41,487 bases of DNA from Minisyncoccota bacterium (GTDB taxonomy: Bacteria; Patescibacteriota; Minisyncoccia; Phycocordibacterales; UBA9973), in assembly GCA_017992305.1 (NCBI GenBank), contig JAGOOX010000003.1:1-41487 (forward strand). The letters run 5' to 3'. Shown piece after piece: positions 30,107 to 39,786 of the stretch. The notes beneath the pieces were generated by a model. That model did not search any database and had not been told where the DNA came from. It saw only the letters and a program-made list of their open reading frames with translations. The first letter of the stretch is position 1, and each line of letters starts with the position of its first letter. Made by a program: the position numbers and the translations under genes.

Positions 30107-30178
30107 TCCTTGGTAGCTCAGCGGTAGAGCGGTCGCCTGTTAAGCGATTGGTCGTAGGTTCGAATCCTACCCAAGGAG
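30107..30178 (+). tRNA. tRNA-Asn (GTT anticodon), likely integration target
   Basis: Acceptor TCCTTGG/CCAAGGA, D arm GCTC/GAGC, anticodon stem GTCGC/GCGAT with loop CTGTTAA (anticodon GTT), T arm GTAGG-TTCGAAT-CCTAC, discriminator G. CCA is not encoded. Its last 12 bases overlap the 3' end of the convergent serine recombinase gene, the arrangement expected at one end of an element inserted into a tRNA gene. Confidence 0.96.
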
Positions 30179-31864
30179 CATTGTAGAAAAAAGTGGGTCA
30201 AATGACTCATTTTTTTCATTTAAGCCTTGTTCTGCAAAGCTTAATTTAGGTTCGAACTTTGGAAATTCTGACTTTATACGTTTTATGCCGTCAGTGAGTA
30301 CTTGTATTGATTTTTTGTTATAAATACTAAGTATTTCGTCGTTCCACACTAGGTTCGAACCAAGGCTTGAAAGTATGTTTCTTTTGGCTTGAAATGATCC
30401 GTTTTGTAAAATCTCAATAGTGCCTTGGGTTAGTTCTGTGATATCTATCATTTCTTGATACCAATCTAAGCTTGATGGGCCTGGCGTGCCTATATCAGAA
30501 TATTCATTTTTTAGATTATTTAAATCAATTTCATAATCGCTATCTGTTATCTTGCTATCTCGAAGCAGGCCACGCAGTCGTGATTTTTTCGATTCAAAAT
30601 CTTGACCCCGTGATTCTTTGTTTTGGGCCATTAAAATATTTTCTGAAATCTCTTTATTTTTCATTTCGTGTATATGTTTTTTAGACCAATCAATTAAGTC
30701 TTTTGAGAAGTTTAGATTTTTATCAATAAAATCCAATAGTTGTGTGGTTATAATTTCTTCGGTTATTGACTTATATTTTTGGCCCGACTTCTTCTTTTTA
30801 ACATTATAGTAATAGGACTTATTCAAGTATTTTGGGTTTTCCATTTTATCAATTTCAATACCGCAACTAGGGCAGTGACTTTTGCTTCTAAAGGCAAATT
30901 TGTTTTTACAGTCACATATAACTTGAAACTTTACGTCTTGACCCATAAAATTACCTTCTTCTGATTGTATAAAGCCAGAGTATATTGATTCGTGACTTTG
31001 TATCTTTGGTATATTTTTACGTGAAAGTATTTGCTTTACTTTGTTGTGTTCTGATTCTGTAATAAGTCTTGGTAAATTTTTATCAAGCTCATACCTTTCG
31101 CCACCGTAAAAGAAGAATCCTGCATATACTGGGTCTTTTAGTATTTCATATATTCTAGACATAACAATTGGGTTTCCACCGCTTCTTTTTCTTTCGGCTG
31201 TTGTTAGGTTAAGTTCGTCTACGGCATATTTATAAAGTTTACCTGCTGAATATGTTCCTGTTAAAAATAGCTCAAAAAGTTTTTTTATTTTCCATATTCT
31301 TTTTTCGTCAACAAGCCACTTTCGATTACCTTTTTCTTCTGTCCTGTCATTAAGAAATCCTAGCGAGGAGACTCCGTGAGGTATTCCCATTGAAGCCTTT
31401 TTAACGTGTCCTCGCTTAACATTTACAGAAAGATCTTTAACATACTGTTTACCTTGGCCAAATTCAACCGACATAAGTAAAACATTATCTGAAGGGTAAT
31501 AAACTTTATCGTGAGTGATGATTGCTTTTATAACACCCGAACTTAACAGGTCGATAATTATTCCACCCTCGCTCATATTTCTAGCTAATCGGTCAATCTT
31601 CCAGCAAACAATTGAATCGGCCATACCTACGTTTATCATTCTTAACATTTCAATAAATTTAGGCCTGCAAGATTCTTTTTTTGCAGACTTAGATTCTTCA
31701 AAAACATTCACAAAGTTTGGTAGTTTGTAAAAATCCACAATTCTTTTTGCTTCGTCTTTTTGAGATTCGATAGATAGCATTTGCTTATCCTCGCTTTCCG
31801 AAGACTTTCTAAAATATCCGATAGGTTTAAGTTTTGTAAAATCTAGTTGGTTATAATTATTCAT
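30167..31864 (-). CDS. Large serine recombinase
   Basis: 565 residues. N-terminal resolvase domain with catalytic serine in GYFRKSSESEDKQMLSIESQ and the arginine region DSIVCWKIDRLARN; recombinase domain (YEILKDPVYAGFFFYGGERY); a zinc ribbon CDC...CPSC at about residues 340-361; and a coiled-coil-rich C-terminus. These enzymes integrate and excise phages and mobile elements at specific att sites. The start at 31864 is chosen because the extension would need a TTG within the terminator run. The stop lies within tRNA-Asn, so this end of the element is probably intact. Confidence 0.95.
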   Translation of the reverse strand: MNNYNQLDFTKLKPIGYFRKSSESEDKQMLSIESQKDEAKRIVDFYKLPNFVNVFEESKSAKKESCRPKFIEMLRMINVGMADSIVCWKIDRLARNMSEGGIIIDLLSSGVIKAIITHDKVYYPSDNVLLMSVEFGQGKQYVKDLSVNVKRGHVKKASMGIPHGVSSLGFLNDRTEEKGNRKWLVDEKRIWKIKKLFELFLTGTYSAGKLYKYAVDELNLTTAERKRSGGNPIVMSRIYEILKDPVYAGFFFYGGERYELDKNLPRLITESEHNKVKQILSRKNIPKIQSHESIYSGFIQSEEGNFMGQDVKFQVICDCKNKFAFRSKSHCPSCGIEIDKMENPKYLNKSYYYNVKKKKSGQKYKSITEEIITTQLLDFIDKNLNFSKDLIDWSKKHIHEMKNKEISENILMAQNKESRGQDFESKKSRLRGLLRDSKITDSDYEIDLNNLKNEYSDIGTPGPSSLDWYQEMIDITELTQGTIEILQNGSFQAKRNILSSLGSNLVWNDEILSIYNKKSIQVLTDGIKRIKSEFPKFEPKLSFAEQGLNEKNESFDPLFSTMLLG

Positions 31865-31867
31865 AGA

Positions 31868-31987
31868 CAAAAATGAGGCAACGACCGATTACTTTTAGTT
31901 GCTACACCAAAGAAGAGTCGTTACCTCGTTTTTATATACAAGAATACTGTTTTTATTTTAATATTCTTATATTTCTTTGGTGTAGCA
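31868..31987 (-). promoter_or_regulatory. Conditional-terminator/pseudoknot leader of the recombinase
   Basis: On the minus strand, GAGGTAACGAC (31927-31917) pairs with GTCGTTGCCTC (31885-31875; one mismatch) and is followed by a U-rich run that ends four bases before the recombinase ATG. The hairpin loop contains TTCTTTGGTGTAGCA (31914-31900), an exact complement of TGCTACACCAAAGAA (31987-31973) upstream. The two stems cross, so they can form a pseudoknot or compete. Confidence 0.7.
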
Positions 31988-33774: not shown

Positions 33775-33931
33775 TTTTATAATCCAAATAACTGCCTAAA
33801 AAATGCGACCTTTTGCGTCATTATGGATTTAGCAATAATTACCTATAGAAAACACCCCATTTTGCCCCAGTACAATGCCACCATTTACCACCATAAAGAT
33901 CCACCCTTTTCCTACCATATATTTATTTGTC

Positions 33932-33961
33932 TTTGTCGACAAAAAGGGTTATCATTAAAAT
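33932..33961 (+). promoter_or_regulatory. Divergent promoter with overlapping TGTCGACA operator
   Basis: TTGTCG (33933-33938), 17-base spacer, TAAAAT (33956-33961). The -35 is embedded in the 12-base palindrome TTTGTCGACAAA (33932-33943). Transcription should start near 33968 and run into the structured RNA at 34011. The DNA between the two operators is G-rich on the minus strand but holds no gene. Confidence 0.6.
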
Positions 33962-34010
33962 ACAATTTAATATGGACCTAACCCCTAGAGATCACTTTAG
34001 GATATGGTCA

Positions 34011-34121
34011 TAAGCCCCGCTAAAGCATAAAGAACTCCTAGTCAGAGTTTGGCTTTAGCGGGCTGTGCCTGGAAACGGGCATAAGTGATCGAAAGATTAC
34101 TCATCTGGCTAGGAGCTTTTT
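34011..34121 (+). ncRNA. Structured RNA with possible pseudoknot, leader of the 34155 gene
   Basis: CCCGCTAAAGC (34016-34026) pairs with GCTTTAGCGGG (34052-34062). The enclosed CTCCTAG (34035-34041) is complementary to CTAGGAG (34109-34115), which precedes a T-run. Between them are two GAAA-capped hairpins: TGCCTG/CGGGCA (34066-34081) and AGTGATC/GATTACT (34084-34101). GATCACTT at 33990 could also pair with AAGTGATC. TAAGCCCCGCTAAAG recurs at 34138-34152, directly before the next ATG, so the central strand can pair with either copy. It matches no riboswitch or ribozyme class I recognise. Confidence 0.7.
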
Positions 34122-34154
34122 GTGTCCTAACTAGAATTAAGCCCCGCTAAAGTT

Positions 34155-34496
34155 ATGGAAAATACAAATAACAATTCTCAAAAATGGTACAAAACGTCAA
34201 AAGGCAAGGCGGTTATTTTTTTACTAATAATGTTCTTTTTAAGCAGAAATTTTCTTTTGGGTGTTTTTATACTTCCAATAGCTTATGGAGTTAAGAAGGG
34301 CGATAAGGGTGCCTTTATTGCTGGTGGTATTTATTCTCTTGTTATGACTTTGGTTAATTGCGCGATTTATGTTTCGAGTAAATACGACGTAAGCGGAAAG
34401 TTTTCATCTAGCTTAACCCCTATATACCTATACGTAATACTTTGTGTGGTTATTATAAAATTATTAATTAGTGCCCATAAAGAATCCAAGGGGTAA
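34155..34496 (+). CDS. Small membrane protein, function unknown
   Basis: 113 residues with four hydrophobic stretches (about 17-31, 32-45, 53-73, 90-106) and polar ends. No family recognised. Its start codon directly follows a repeat that can base-pair with the upstream structured RNA, so translation may be controlled by RNA folding. The next small membrane protein begins four bases after its stop. Confidence 0.65.
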   Translation: MENTNNNSQKWYKTSKGKAVIFLLIMFFLSRNFLLGVFILPIAYGVKKGDKGAFIAGGIYSLVMTLVNCAIYVSSKYDVSGKFSSSLTPIYLYVILCVVIIKLLISAHKESKG

Positions 34497-34500
34497 ATAT

Positions 34501-34725
34501 ATGAAAAAAATAAAAATAATATCAATAATAGTCTTAATCCTTCTTATAACGTTTGCTATATATAAACGCTATAAATATGAGGTCAAGATTTTAAACTATT
34601 GCGTGGCTCAGGGCATATACGAATCTTGGGATAAAAAAAGAGACGAATTTTCTAATACTGAGTATAATAAATGCATCAAGGACTCAAGGGTTATATTTTT
34701 ACTACGCAACGCCAATAAAAAATAG
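34501..34725 (+). CDS. Small signal-anchored protein
   Basis: 74 residues from the ATG at 34501 (MKKIKIISIIVLILLITFAI), a basic N-terminus with one membrane helix followed by a polar extracytoplasmic domain with two cysteines (NYCVAQG, YNKCIKD). Not recognised. An upstream ATG at 34471 would overlap the previous gene. The pair could be a small membrane module accompanying the defence gene downstream. Confidence 0.6.
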   Translation: MKKIKIISIIVLILLITFAIYKRYKYEVKILNYCVAQGIYESWDKKRDEFSNTEYNKCIKDSRVIFLLRNANKK

Positions 34726-34800: not shown

Positions 34801-37800
34801 ATGATAAAATCAAGCCTTATGGAATCCCAAGAAAATGAAACTATACAAGATATTAAAGACCTGATCAAAAGACCAGTTGCTTCAATAATTTCTCCCCCTG
34901 TCACTCCAAATGCCCAAAGTTTACCGTTTAATAATTTAAGCTGGGAGGATTTTGAGGTTTTATGTCTTAAGCTTGTTTCAAACGAAGCAAATGTTGAAGA
35001 AGCAAGACCATATGGCACAAAAGGGCAAAAACAAGATGGGATTGATGTTTATGCAAAGATGAAAAATAATTCTGACTACTCAGTATATCAATGTAAGAAT
35101 GAAAAGGATTTTAGTCCATCAAAAATAGAAAAGGCAGTGACTAAATTTATTGATGGCAAATGGTTAAAATCTACAAAAACTTTTGTTTTATGTAGTCAAG
35201 AAAGTCTTGCTTCTACAATAAGATCAGATGAAATAGAGAAACAAAGAAATAGACTGGGTAAGGAAAAAGTTAAATTTGAGATTTGGGATACAGTAAAATT
35301 AAACCAAAAACTTAAATCAAATCCGCAATTAGTTTTCGACACATTTGGACCTGAATGGTTAAAAAACTTTTGTGGAGAGTCAGTCGCTACTAGCATAATT
35401 ACAACTTCTCCAAAAATTGATACTCTTAAACTTAAAAAGGATCTTTTGAATTTCTATCAATATACTTTTGCGTTTCACGATCCTGGTATACCCAGTTCAG
35501 CTATTGGTAAGCAAAACATACCACTACAAGATAGATTTGTTGTACCTTTTATAAATGAAAAAACTTCGTATTCGGAAACTCTTGAGAAAGCATCTGAAAG
35601 TGACGAGGATATAGACACCTCACTTGTAGGTGCTGATGTAGAAGAAGATCGAGTAAAGATTATTAAGGCTAGGGCCTCAATATTAAATGATTTTAACGAC
35701 CAAAGAAAGAACATAGATAATTGGCTTGCTTTAAGTAATAAAAACATTATATTAGGAGAGCCTGGTAGTGGAAAAACAATGCTACTGAGATTTATAGCAT
35801 TAGATTTATTAAAAAATACTAACCAACTTGAGAACCTTTCCAATGAATACAGAGACCATATTCCACTATGGATTTCTTTTGCCTTTTGGACGAAGATGAT
35901 TTCTCAAAAGCAAGATTTATCGATGAACGAAATTATCGAGAAGTGGCTCAACAGTTGGTCAAAAAGCGAACTCGTACCTCTGATAAACCAAGCATTGTCG
36001 ACAAAAAAGATTTTACTTTTAGTAGATGGTCTTGACGAATGGAGCGACGAATTATCAGCTAAAATTGCAATAGATCGATTGAGCATATTTGTTGGAGAAA
36101 ATAATCTCCCAACTTTTATTACGAGCAGAATAAATGGATTTAAAAAGTTAGGAATATCAACAATAGACTGGAAAGTAGGTTATATAGAGGGCTTTGATGC
36201 AAATCAACAGAAAGAGTTGAGTAATATTTGGTTTAAAGCAAGAGTCAAAGAAATACATTCTGGCGAAAAGCAAGTCTCGGCTGAAGTCATCTCAAAAGAA
36301 TCTGCCTTAGAGACTCAGAATTTCTTAGAAGAATTACAAAATTCTCCTGCACTCAAAGAACTTGGGAGAATTCCGTTACTCCTTTCTCTCTTAATCCTTC
36401 TAAAATTACAGAAAATAAAATTACCTCAAAATAGATTTAAAGCTTACGATGAATTGATAAATCATTTGATCGGTGTTCATCCTGAAAAAAGAAAAGTAAC
36501 TTCTGGAGCTAATGTTAAAGAGCTTACTTTTTCAAACGACGAACTCAAAAAAATTTTTTCTCATTTAGCTTTTACTATTCAAAGTGTTAACGGTAGTGGA
36601 ACTATTGATCAAGAAGAGGCAAAGAAAAATATAATAAGATTTCTTATTGATGATAGTTACGGTTTGTCTTCCTCAGAAGTTGACGCTAAAAAGATTGCTT
36701 CTGTTATTGTTGAAGTTGGCGAAGATAATCTTGGATTACTTGTTAAAAAATCACCTCAAGAAATTGGCTTCTTTCATAGGGCCTTTCAGGAATATTTATC
36801 AGCTTTCCATATATCTAGATTGCCTTTAAAAGAACAGAAAAAAATTATTTTAGAAAACTCCACAAACCCTCAATGGAAAGAGGTTATTCTGAGTATGTTT
36901 AATCTCTCAATGAGAAACGAAGATACTGACAACTTTATTGATCTTCTTTTACCGCTAAGAAAAGACTTAAGTAATAAACCAGCCATAGACTCTATTTTAT
37001 ATGAAGTTGCGTTTGGTGACTTTAATTGTTCTCCTAAAAAAGCTAGAGACTTAATCAATGAGGCTTTTAATGACGTAGAATCTCCGCTACCTATTAGTTA
37101 TAGAGAAAAAGTTCTAGGTCAAATACTGGGCGGTCTTAGATCAGCTCAAGCTAGAAAAATTGTTGAGGAAAAACTACACTATTGGTTTCCTAATCAACTC
37201 GGTGGTTATTGGAATAAAGACTCTGTTTATAAGGAGATGTCATCTTGGCCAAAAGAAACAGTTACTTTGGACACATTATGGCTAGGAGTAGTTGATGGAT
37301 CGAGAAACGCAGGTAAGAGCTTGGCTGCTATTTATAAAAATGACAAAGCTCTTGAGAGAAAACTAGAAGAACTAATCCACTCCACTACAAATCCAACAGT
37401 TCAAGCTGTTGCTCTGGAGGCATTATTAATTGGATGGAAGAATGGCTCGGTGACTAAAAAATTGTTTGGTATGATAAAAGACTCTACAAACTCTGCACTA
37501 AAAACGTTGTCAATAATATACAAGATTGCCAATAAGCAACAGACAGAAAAAGATAGAAAAGACCTCATTTGGCTATCTAATTGGGAGAGTGGCCTCTCGA
37601 ATCAATGGCAAGCCGATATAGCGGATCTTTTAATGAAGGGTTGGCCTCATTCGCAATTAACAAAGAAAGTGGCTTTAAGCTCATATGCTTCTTATGGCCG
37701 TGAATTTGATAGAACCCCAGCACTAACTGTTCTCCTAAAAGATTATCCGTATGATAAAGATGTAAGGGGTTTCGCTCTTAATCAAATAAAATATGATCAG

Positions 37801-39786
37801 CATCCATTTTCGAGCATTCATCTAGACTCTTGGAAAATGTTAAGTACCAGTTTTAAAGATGATCCTGAATTAATATTAGCAATCGATGAATGGATAACTT
37901 CCAAAAACCCTATGGATACAGATGCCTCTTTAGCTTCTCTTTTAGGAAGAACAGAAGTCTGTAAAAAATATTTAATAAAAAAAGTACAAGAGAGAGGGTT
38001 TATTCATTGGCCAGCGTCTGCGCTTCTTGATGGTTGGGGTATTAAAGATCCTGACGTTAAATCCGTATTAGTAAAAATTGCGAGAGGGCCCGTAACTAAA
38101 GCATCTTCTGTGGCACATCTTATCCCTAGAATAATTATTGATCCAAAAGAAGCTAAGAACTTGTTGATGAAAATGATGCGAGATAAAAAATGCGAAAGGA
38201 TAGACTTCGCAGTTGAAGGATTGTCTCAATTAAACAAATCGAAAAAAATGGAGGGAGAAATTGTTACATTTATTATCGACGAGGTTCTTCCTCGAAAAAA
38301 AGCTAGAATGTATGACGGTTTTTTACATAGATTCATAAGAGAATTTTCAAAGGATAGTAGGGTTAAAGAAATTGCAAAAACTGTTTTAATCGACAAAGAC
38401 TTTGATGCTTCAATAGCGGCTGGCGTATATTTTAAAGACGGTGAAATTAGACAAAGAATTAATACTCTGATGCGTTCATTGCCTACATCTTTAAAGATGG
38501 TAATAGCGAAATATTTAGCTGAAAATACGATAGATATTGAATTTGAATCAACTATTTTAAGTTCTTACGATATGGATCACGACGAAGATGTTAAAGTTCA
38601 GGCATCTATTGGTTTCTACAACAAGTTAAAATCTAAAGGTCAAGATAATTCTACTGTTTTAGCAAAACTCATTGAGGATATTGGTTGTTACGGACCCGAT
38701 TATACAGAACGTCGATTGGCCGCATTTTGTGGGCTCTTTATCTTAGGACACCTACCTAAGGTTTTAACTCTAAATGAAAAAATGAGATCGGCGGATAAAA
38801 CAGAAAGATTTGTAAACATTTCAGTAATTGAAGGTATGAGAATTAATTTGCCAATGATTAAATTTGTACTTGAAAATTGGGATGAAATAAAATTAATATT
38901 AAAAACAGAGTTTTGGCAAAGACTATTTGCACACCATTCATCCTCTGAATATGTGTGGGATAAGTTATGTATACTTGCCGATAAATATAACACGCCCAAA
39001 AAAGAGGCTTTGGGTTATTTCACAAATCTTCATACAAAAGTAGCAAGATCAAATAGTCTGTATTTCCTAGAAAGAACTGTCCCTAAAAGCCTTCTTCTTC
39101 TGGAGTACTGCTTAAATGTTATAGCTGTTACAAATAGAAACGACCCACAATACCTTAGGCATAATGAAATAACTCATAGTGATAGTCTGGTGGCAGTTGA
39201 AATTCTGGGCAGGAATTTTAAGGGAGATGAAAAAGTTCAAGAAATGATTGAAGCCAGGATTAATACTAAAATGCCTGTTGATGAGAATGCAATTAAACTA
39301 TTAAGCGAGGGATGGCCCAACAGTACCTATCTACAAACATCTTTCGACTATCTTGCAAAGAACAGCCCTCAAATTTCTTGGGGTACTTATTTTAGAATGG
39401 TTAGTTTAAAAGGGAGTAATAAAGCAATTATTAAAGGTGTTTCTGATCTACTTATGACATATGAAAAAACTCCTCAAAATGCTAGATTTTTTTCATCGAT
39501 CATTAAACCCGTCTTAAAAAGGCTTCAGAAAGATGACGAGTTGTATCAACTAATGTTAAAGAAAATTAAATCTGACTGCACTTTTTCTGAAAGAATAAGT
39601 TTCCTACAATTAATCCTAAAAGCTCGTGGTTTGAATAGTGAAACAAAGTTTATCTTAGCTACAATATCAAAGAAAATAACCAAAGAGAACGTCTTTGACT
39701 ACGGTTTTGATATTACTGATGGGGAAATTAAAACGTTGAAAAGGGTATTGGCAAATTTTTACTTCCAAGAAAAATCGTACTCATAA
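34801..39786 (+). CDS. Giant STAND protein: PD-(D/E)XK nuclease - NACHT - helical repeat sensor
   Basis: 1661 residues. Residues about 45-120 form a restriction-endonuclease-like (Mrr-type) domain with D79/D82 (QDGID) and Q97-x-K99 (YQCKN). The NACHT NTPase has Walker A GEPGSGKT (319-326), Walker B ILLLVDGLDEW (404-414) and sensor FITSRINGF, ending near FFHRAFQEYLSAFH. The remaining roughly 900 residues are alpha-helical repeats suited to sensing a ligand. This is the plan of Avs/bNACHT anti-phage proteins, where phage-protein binding triggers oligomerisation and DNA cutting. Arginine is almost always AGA/AGG, unlike the core genes, which suggests transfer. Which Avs class, and what it senses, cannot be read from the sequence. 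Confidence 0.88.
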   Translation: MIKSSLMESQENETIQDIKDLIKRPVASIISPPVTPNAQSLPFNNLSWEDFEVLCLKLVSNEANVEEARPYGTKGQKQDGIDVYAKMKNNSDYSVYQCKNEKDFSPSKIEKAVTKFIDGKWLKSTKTFVLCSQESLASTIRSDEIEKQRNRLGKEKVKFEIWDTVKLNQKLKSNPQLVFDTFGPEWLKNFCGESVATSIITTSPKIDTLKLKKDLLNFYQYTFAFHDPGIPSSAIGKQNIPLQDRFVVPFINEKTSYSETLEKASESDEDIDTSLVGADVEEDRVKIIKARASILNDFNDQRKNIDNWLALSNKNIILGEPGSGKTMLLRFIALDLLKNTNQLENLSNEYRDHIPLWISFAFWTKMISQKQDLSMNEIIEKWLNSWSKSELVPLINQALSTKKILLLVDGLDEWSDELSAKIAIDRLSIFVGENNLPTFITSRINGFKKLGISTIDWKVGYIEGFDANQQKELSNIWFKARVKEIHSGEKQVSAEVISKESALETQNFLEELQNSPALKELGRIPLLLSLLILLKLQKIKLPQNRFKAYDELINHLIGVHPEKRKVTSGANVKELTFSNDELKKIFSHLAFTIQSVNGSGTIDQEEAKKNIIRFLIDDSYGLSSSEVDAKKIASVIVEVGEDNLGLLVKKSPQEIGFFHRAFQEYLSAFHISRLPLKEQKKIILENSTNPQWKEVILSMFNLSMRNEDTDNFIDLLLPLRKDLSNKPAIDSILYEVAFGDFNCSPKKARDLINEAFNDVESPLPISYREKVLGQILGGLRSAQARKIVEEKLHYWFPNQLGGYWNKDSVYKEMSSWPKETVTLDTLWLGVVDGSRNAGKSLAAIYKNDKALERKLEELIHSTTNPTVQAVALEALLIGWKNGSVTKKLFGMIKDSTNSALKTLSIIYKIANKQQTEKDRKDLIWLSNWESGLSNQWQADIADLLMKGWPHSQLTKKVALSSYASYGREFDRTPALTVLLKDYPYDKDVRGFALNQIKYDQHPFSSIHLDSWKMLSTSFKDDPELILAIDEWITSKNPMDTDASLASLLGRTEVCKKYLIKKVQERGFIHWPASALLDGWGIKDPDVKSVLVKIARGPVTKASSVAHLIPRIIIDPKEAKNLLMKMMRDKKCERIDFAVEGLSQLNKSKKMEGEIVTFIIDEVLPRKKARMYDGFLHRFIREFSKDSRVKEIAKTVLIDKDFDASIAAGVYFKDGEIRQRINTLMRSLPTSLKMVIAKYLAENTIDIEFESTILSSYDMDHDEDVKVQASIGFYNKLKSKGQDNSTVLAKLIEDIGCYGPDYTERRLAAFCGLFILGHLPKVLTLNEKMRSADKTERFVNISVIEGMRINLPMIKFVLENWDEIKLILKTEFWQRLFAHHSSSEYVWDKLCILADKYNTPKKEALGYFTNLHTKVARSNSLYFLERTVPKSLLLLEYCLNVIAVTNRNDPQYLRHNEITHSDSLVAVEILGRNFKGDEKVQEMIEARINTKMPVDENAIKLLSEGWPNSTYLQTSFDYLAKNSPQISWGTYFRMVSLKGSNKAIIKGVSDLLMTYEKTPQNARFFSSIIKPVLKRLQKDDELYQLMLKKIKSDCTFSERISFLQLILKARGLNSETKFILATISKKITKENVFDYGFDITDGEIKTLKRVLANFYFQEKSYS

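Follow-up and report, generated by a model that had tools for sequence, protein, structure and literature searches.

A LOOT RNA before a NACHT gene and a candidate two-state leader model for the LOOT family

Introduction

Packing of a GAAA tetraloop into an 11-nt receptor is also found in c-di-GMP-I riboswitches, and antisense RNAs control restriction-modification genes. LOOT RNAs, which were reportedly described by Weinberg in 2017, occur in very small bacteria and are filed in Rfam as 'Gene; sRNA'. The accessible passages of three papers show LOOT as a metagenome-derived family (PMC7779021), call its 28 cross-covariations an extreme case (PMC7657543) and count it among the families whose structures R-scape refined, in its case by adding 2 covarying pairs (PMC11701678). 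No published function for LOOT is given in the passages of the literature within reach, which do not include the original description.

The window analysed here is the whole stretch of 41,487 nucleotides from a Minisyncoccota bacterium. The initial annotation had described an RNA with two GAAA-capped hairpins, stems that cross and a switching strand in three matched copies, all of which are present at the place it gave. It had also held that this RNA fits no known class, and the Rfam search that it called for refuted that claim.

Results

The window RNA is a LOOT RNA

In an all-Rfam scan, the match to LOOT (RF03000) at 33975-34101 scored 79.8 bits against a gathering cut-off of 46.4 (E 1.3e-13). 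The RNA covers the covariance model end to end (positions 1-121 of 121), and hairpins P1, long P2, P3 and P4 follow one another in order in the cmscan alignment; the window element is a LOOT RNA (Table 1). The start originally placed at 33990 falls within a correctly located element, but the structured unit begins further upstream, at 33975 by Rfam and at about 33962 with its leader. Folding of 33962-34125 gave -62.7 kcal/mol (z = -5.84 against 200 shuffles). The ACAA leader is kept in 129 of 162 loci versus 34 after shuffling. Two promoter-like hexamer pairs were seen where shuffles lead one to expect 1.1, so such a pair in front of the leader is a weak sign on its own.

Table 1. Positions of the LOOT RNA elements and of the genes behind it in the window
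Feature	Position	Strand	Remark
Promoter-like hexamer pair, TTGTCT...TATCAT or TTGTCG...TAAAAT	33927-33961	+	Just 5' of the RNA
Conserved leader ACAAYTNAATA, probable transcript 5' end	33962-33974	+	Start site putative
P1 with internal loop CCTAAC (33977-33982) / TATGG (34003-34007)	33975-34009	+	Near-canonical 11-nt GAAA tetraloop receptor
P2 5' strand CCCGCTAAAGC	34016-34026	+	
A-rich strand ATAAAGAA	34027-34034	+	U-run partner in helix P6; fold and covariation against swapped loci
P2 loop strand CTCCTAGTCAG	34035-34045	+	
P2 3' strand GCTTTAGCGGG	34052-34062	+	Partner is P2 5' strand or next gene's start region
P3 hairpin, GAAA loop 34072-34075	34063-34083	+	GAAA in 236/240 loci
P4 hairpin, GAAA loop 34091-34094	34084-34101	+	Loop variable across family
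3' tail CTGGCTAGGAG (34105-34115) and CTTTTT	34105-34121	+	Beyond Rfam model; partners are P2 loop and A-rich strand (P6); fold, swap test
Strand TCCTAACTAG, alternative tail partner (P5)	34125-34134	+	Fold; swap test
Start-region copy CCCGCTAAAG	34143-34152	+	2 nt 5' of ATG 34155
113-aa ORF, first gene of presumed regulated group	34155-34496	+	No Pfam or PADLOC match
74-aa ORF	34501-34725	+	From ATG 34501; no Pfam match
1661-aa NACHT protein, likely defence gene	34801-39786	+	PF05729

The strand CCCGCTAAAG occurs at 34016-34025 (+), 34053-34062 (-, within GCTTTAGCGGG) and 34143-34152 (+), three sites against a chance expectation of 0.04 in the window, and no further exact copy was found in the 609-kb genome assembly. 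A second set of matched strands is formed by CTCCTAGTCAG and its complement CTGGCTAGGAG, which adjoins CTTTTTG; the 11-bp duplex is worth -17.4 kcal/mol.

Loop, tail and U-run are predicted to form a competing helix

Three genome surveys recovered LOOT, in 25 of 60 relatives, in 103 of 383 members of the class and in 83 of 379 members of the phylum, and roughly one in four of the phylum's genomes that were searched carry it; the 14 control genomes of each survey had none. The LOOT sets of the surveys overlap, and duplicates were taken out on the basis of place or sequence. Of the 124 matches listed in the phylum survey, 60 further places and 17 loci were analysed. P2 helices were delimited with a simple script, and the null for the pairing tests was obtained by swapping strands between loci, a control that leaves relatedness in.

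The P2 loop pairs with the tail of its own locus over a mean of 11.3 bp, compared with 7.0 bp for swapped partners, and the pairing reaches at least 9 bp in 147 of 160 loci (about 26 when swapped). Folded alone, the window RNA forms P6, in which the loop/tail helix is lengthened by AUAAAGA with UUUUUGU. This A-rich/U-run extension covaries across the family, with a score of at least 8 in 118 of 222 loci versus 51.5 swapped, in motif pairs such as TAAAGAA/CTTTTTG, TACTGAA/CTTAGTG and CAAAGGA/CCTTTTG. Nested energies of the two helices are close: P2 is lower in 158 and P6 in 64 of the 222 loci, with a median of 2.8 kcal/mol in favour of P2. Because no spacer separates the A-rich strand from the P2 5' strand, the 20-bp P6 and P2 are likely to be mutually exclusive on grounds of geometry. 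With its A tract, GC stem and U tract, P6 is arranged like an intrinsic terminator whose loop is long and branched; standard and simple scans, which are blind to a terminator with such a loop, found no intrinsic terminator. The tail also pairs with sequence past the U-run (P5) in 79 of 228 loci, as against 25.5 for swapped and 11.6 for shuffled strands.

The P1 internal loop reads CCTAA followed by A or C and faces C or T followed by ATGG. Its sixth-position pair is A-C in 127, C-T in 75, C-C in 13, G-T in 4 and another combination in 4 of the 239 distinct RNAs. The canonical 11-nt GAAA receptor is CCUAAG/UAUGG, and variants like CCUAAC/CAUGG have been examined as working receptors (PMC11381326). 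GAAA is present in the P3 stretch of 236 of 240 loci, and P4 loops vary (GAAA 53, GCAA 42, TTCG 22 of 162). The P3 GAAA loop is predicted to dock in P1.

In about a quarter of loci the next gene's start region is matched to P2

The third strand was sought in each locus as a copy of its own P2 5' strand, 12 to 160 nt past the end of the model. At 73 of the 304 loci the P2 3' strand and the start region of the adjacent gene are complementary over at least 9 nt, where swapped loci predict about 0.6 (by set, 39/160, 14/76 and 20/68 versus 0.32, 0.16 and 0.12); the match is missing from the other 231. The 73 loci represent 32 P2 types when grouped by single linkage on shared 7-mers, and in 69 of them the copy ends near an ATG, from 6 nt within to 9 nt ahead of it. 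On the upstream side, none of the 160 loci of the first set has a P2 5' match of at least 9 nt. Homologous first genes in L008, L028 and L120 begin alike and are preceded, before the ATG, by CCCGCTAGA, CCTATCAAGC and CCGTCCAAA respectively, each of which fits its own P2.

At G-U positions of P2 (n = 14), the start region has the letter that makes a Watson-Crick pair with the P2 3' strand in 11 cases, the P2 5' letter in 2 and neither in 1, a count in which several positions lie at A-rich edges, L258 is probably a chance match and L133 and L202 are near twins, so that the effective n is smaller. Since the G-U positions follow the pairing partner of the P2 3' strand, the match is best read as pairing, not copying. 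The loci without a copy still show modest general complementarity in the start region (16 of 85 versus 6.75 swapped), and a match between tail and start region is present in L007 and L029; copies of the P2 loop strand showed no excess over the loci as a general rule. Replacement of a Shine-Dalgarno sequence by the match was considered and rejected, SD-like motifs being rare with it and without it (3/37 and 3/95).

These observations bear on whether LOOT only attenuates transcription, with the start-region match as a side effect such as a duplication remnant. The terminator layout of P6 and the lack of a match in most loci would suit such a reading, but it does not account for the placing of nearly every match at a start codon or for the empty upstream side, and plain duplication would not make the G-U positions follow the pairing partner instead of the copied strand; we therefore consider it improbable.

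In the full-length window leader, the P2 fold (-71.9 kcal/mol) is better by 4.2 kcal/mol than the fold that pairs the P2 3' strand with the start region (-67.7 kcal/mol), and P2 must therefore be opened by something.

One P2 type, CCGTCCAAAG, occurs in seven loci (L016, L018, L120, L223, L238, L290 and L331) with loop and tail conserved and the match kept each time, before mostly unrelated first genes. It looks as if this leader had been swapped between genes like a cassette.

LOOT appears to act on its neighbour

LOOT might also be a free-standing small RNA that has a promoter and terminator of its own and acts in trans, with the neighbouring start region as one antisense target among others. 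The Rfam type, the conserved leader and U-run and the many loci without a start-region match are in keeping with this. Against it, exact P2 5' 10-mers are not in excess in G000, G015 and G025, where they occur only at the three LOOT-locus sites, and G028 has one extra site; with one mismatch allowed, the strand has 17 sites in all in G000, compared with 30 for the reversed pattern. Genomic targets away from the locus, a feature of trans-acting sRNAs, were thus not found for these P2 strands, exact or with one mismatch, in the genomes tried. P2 is also not kept apart within genomes: 3 of 96 within-genome pairs share it, as do 117 of 28584 between-genome pairs, which gives no sign of selection for differing P2 strands or separate targets. 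A free sRNA is thus unlikely in our view. As the few P2 strands tested lack an excess of genomic targets, LOOT appears to act locally, its pairing being private to the neighbour gene for these strands.

A two-state leader is proposed

Our preferred reading, on which we are evenly balanced, is that LOOT could be a cis-acting two-state leader of the genes behind it, with P2 formed in the on state and P6 together with start-region masking in the off state. Comparison of about 300 relatives suggests a leader that changes shape, and the riboswitch or attenuator logic of the initial annotation finds support in the start-region pairing, the loop/tail pseudoknot and the competing P6. The pairings are shown by this comparison; that P6 excludes P2, that transcription terminates, that the start region is masked, that P3 docks and in which direction control runs we infer, and regulation, a ligand and actual switching are putative.

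In the on state, P2 would form, aided by docking of the P3 GAAA loop in the P1 receptor, and the start region would be free; the pseudoknot between tail and P2 loop may persist. In the off state, the A-rich and loop strands would pair with the tail and U-run to give the long helix P6, which has the terminator layout and should exclude P2, and the freed P2 3' strand could then pair with the start region of any mRNA that is read through. At the quarter of loci with a match, both transcription and translation would be shut off. A ligand, a protein or the speed of transcription are candidates for the driver of the change.

Genes behind LOOT and genomic setting

The NACHT gene named in the initial annotation is confirmed (PF05729 at residues 316-480, Pfam E 1.5e-8), and its 1661-aa product has a weak PtuA-type ATPase match in PADLOC (E 1.2e-4); the two small membrane proteins described in front of it have no Pfam match and are hydrophobic by eye only. 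A serine recombinase gene (30170-31870, -) abuts tRNA-Asn (30107-30179), as in integrated islands, and G+C is lower to the right of this junction (0.33 versus 0.36). The LOOT-NACHT group is probably part of an integrated island that the end of the contig truncates; no attachment-site repeat or second tRNA-Asn end was found in the window up to that end. The third strand is very unlikely to be the footprint of a mobile unit that travels with LOOT (a target or recombination site), to which the seven-locus P2 type and the recombinases and phage genes among which loci lie would point: the copy tracks the start codon rather than the border of an element, has no second copy in the flank and comes with differing P2 types before homologous genes.

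First genes were chosen mechanically, as the ORF at the matched ATG or the longest ORF starting within 300 nt, and some are wrong. Among 40 match-bearing loci (match of at least 8 nt and first ORF of at least 60 aa; six of them, L020, L070, L097, L132, L133 and L139, named by hand), 8 first genes encode N6/N4 DNA methyltransferases that resemble type III Mod. No such methyltransferase is among the 25 families listed for 115 of the 116 other loci (L145, too long, was omitted), where a strong match would be listed; a hand-computed hypergeometric estimate puts this contrast at about 1 in 100,000. A role as a general methyltransferase leader was rejected, such genes being present in 250 of 383 genomes. 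Two of the 40 match-bearing first genes match the superinfection-immunity family PF14373, and in L019 and L095 the first genes encode small proteins.

Downstream of 55 of 105 LOOTs, 148 of 259 ORFs were searched, and yielded ResIII (4), resolvase (4), MethyltransfD12 (3), GmrSD (3), SNase (3), HSDR_N_2 (2) and nSTAND3 (2). In 150 of 180 control ORFs, from 20 stretches of the same genome group, the commonest families are housekeeping ones. PADLOC models hit numbered 276 in the downstream set and 76 in the control, where the models overlap, defence-like hits occur in both sets and the control has one type I methyltransferase. These comparisons suggest that the gene behind LOOT is often a defence or mobile gene.

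A pattern scan of named genomes found at least 116 stretches. When pattern hits and 31 viral contigs were put through a structure check, 88 of 147 passed (86 of 103 known LOOTs do). Among the titles listed, passing records with a group name belong to Nomurabacteria, Parcubacteria, Falkowbacteria, Yanofskybacteria, Saccharibacteria, Dojkabacteria and other candidate-phyla bacteria, with the sole exception of a Methanofastidiosum MAG (L266) that may be misbinned; pattern hits titled 'Clostridia', 'Leptolyngbya' and 'Nitrospinae' failed the check. Known phage and plasmid records contained no match to the window RNA. A large terminase is encoded on 2 of the 6 passing viral contigs (L317 and L319). 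On L319 (4406-7071), LOOT is flanked by genes for a reverse transcriptase (PHROG 1423, E 4.6e-107) and a PD-(D/E)XK-like protein, beside the large terminase gene, in what is possibly a diversity-generating element. One 0.7-Mb genome (G028; contigs C1, C4 and C6) has seven LOOT RNAs, several within 50 kb, whose P2 strands are all different.

Discussion

With the matched start strand, P6 and the receptor, a family that lacked a function gains a two-state model that can be tested, one that ties LOOT to timing-sensitive genes such as the DNA methyltransferases of restriction-modification systems. The model may also explain the unusual covariation reported for LOOT: loop and tail strands that serve competing pairings could give rise to the cross-covariations. 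More tentatively, and with less confidence than we place in the two-state leader itself, LOOT may represent a large uncharacterised class of switches that act on both transcription and translation and are restricted to candidate-phyla bacteria and their phages. Each copy would be fitted to its own gene alone by a switching helix that can be exchanged, and such a leader would serve as a portable cassette for the control of restriction-modification, NACHT and other mobile cargo.

The Rfam LOOT model ends before the tail, the U-run and the start-region strand, whereas the window element extends through all three. With translational and transcriptional riboswitches, LOOT would share three mutually exclusive strands, a terminator-like helix and GAAA/11-nt receptor packing; it differs from them in that any ligand or binding core is hypothetical, that it precedes mutually unrelated genes and that its switching helix is hypervariable. 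Antisense control of restriction-modification genes likewise involves an RNA before or against such genes but, unlike these antisense RNAs, LOOT is structured, lies upstream and is on the same strand as its gene.
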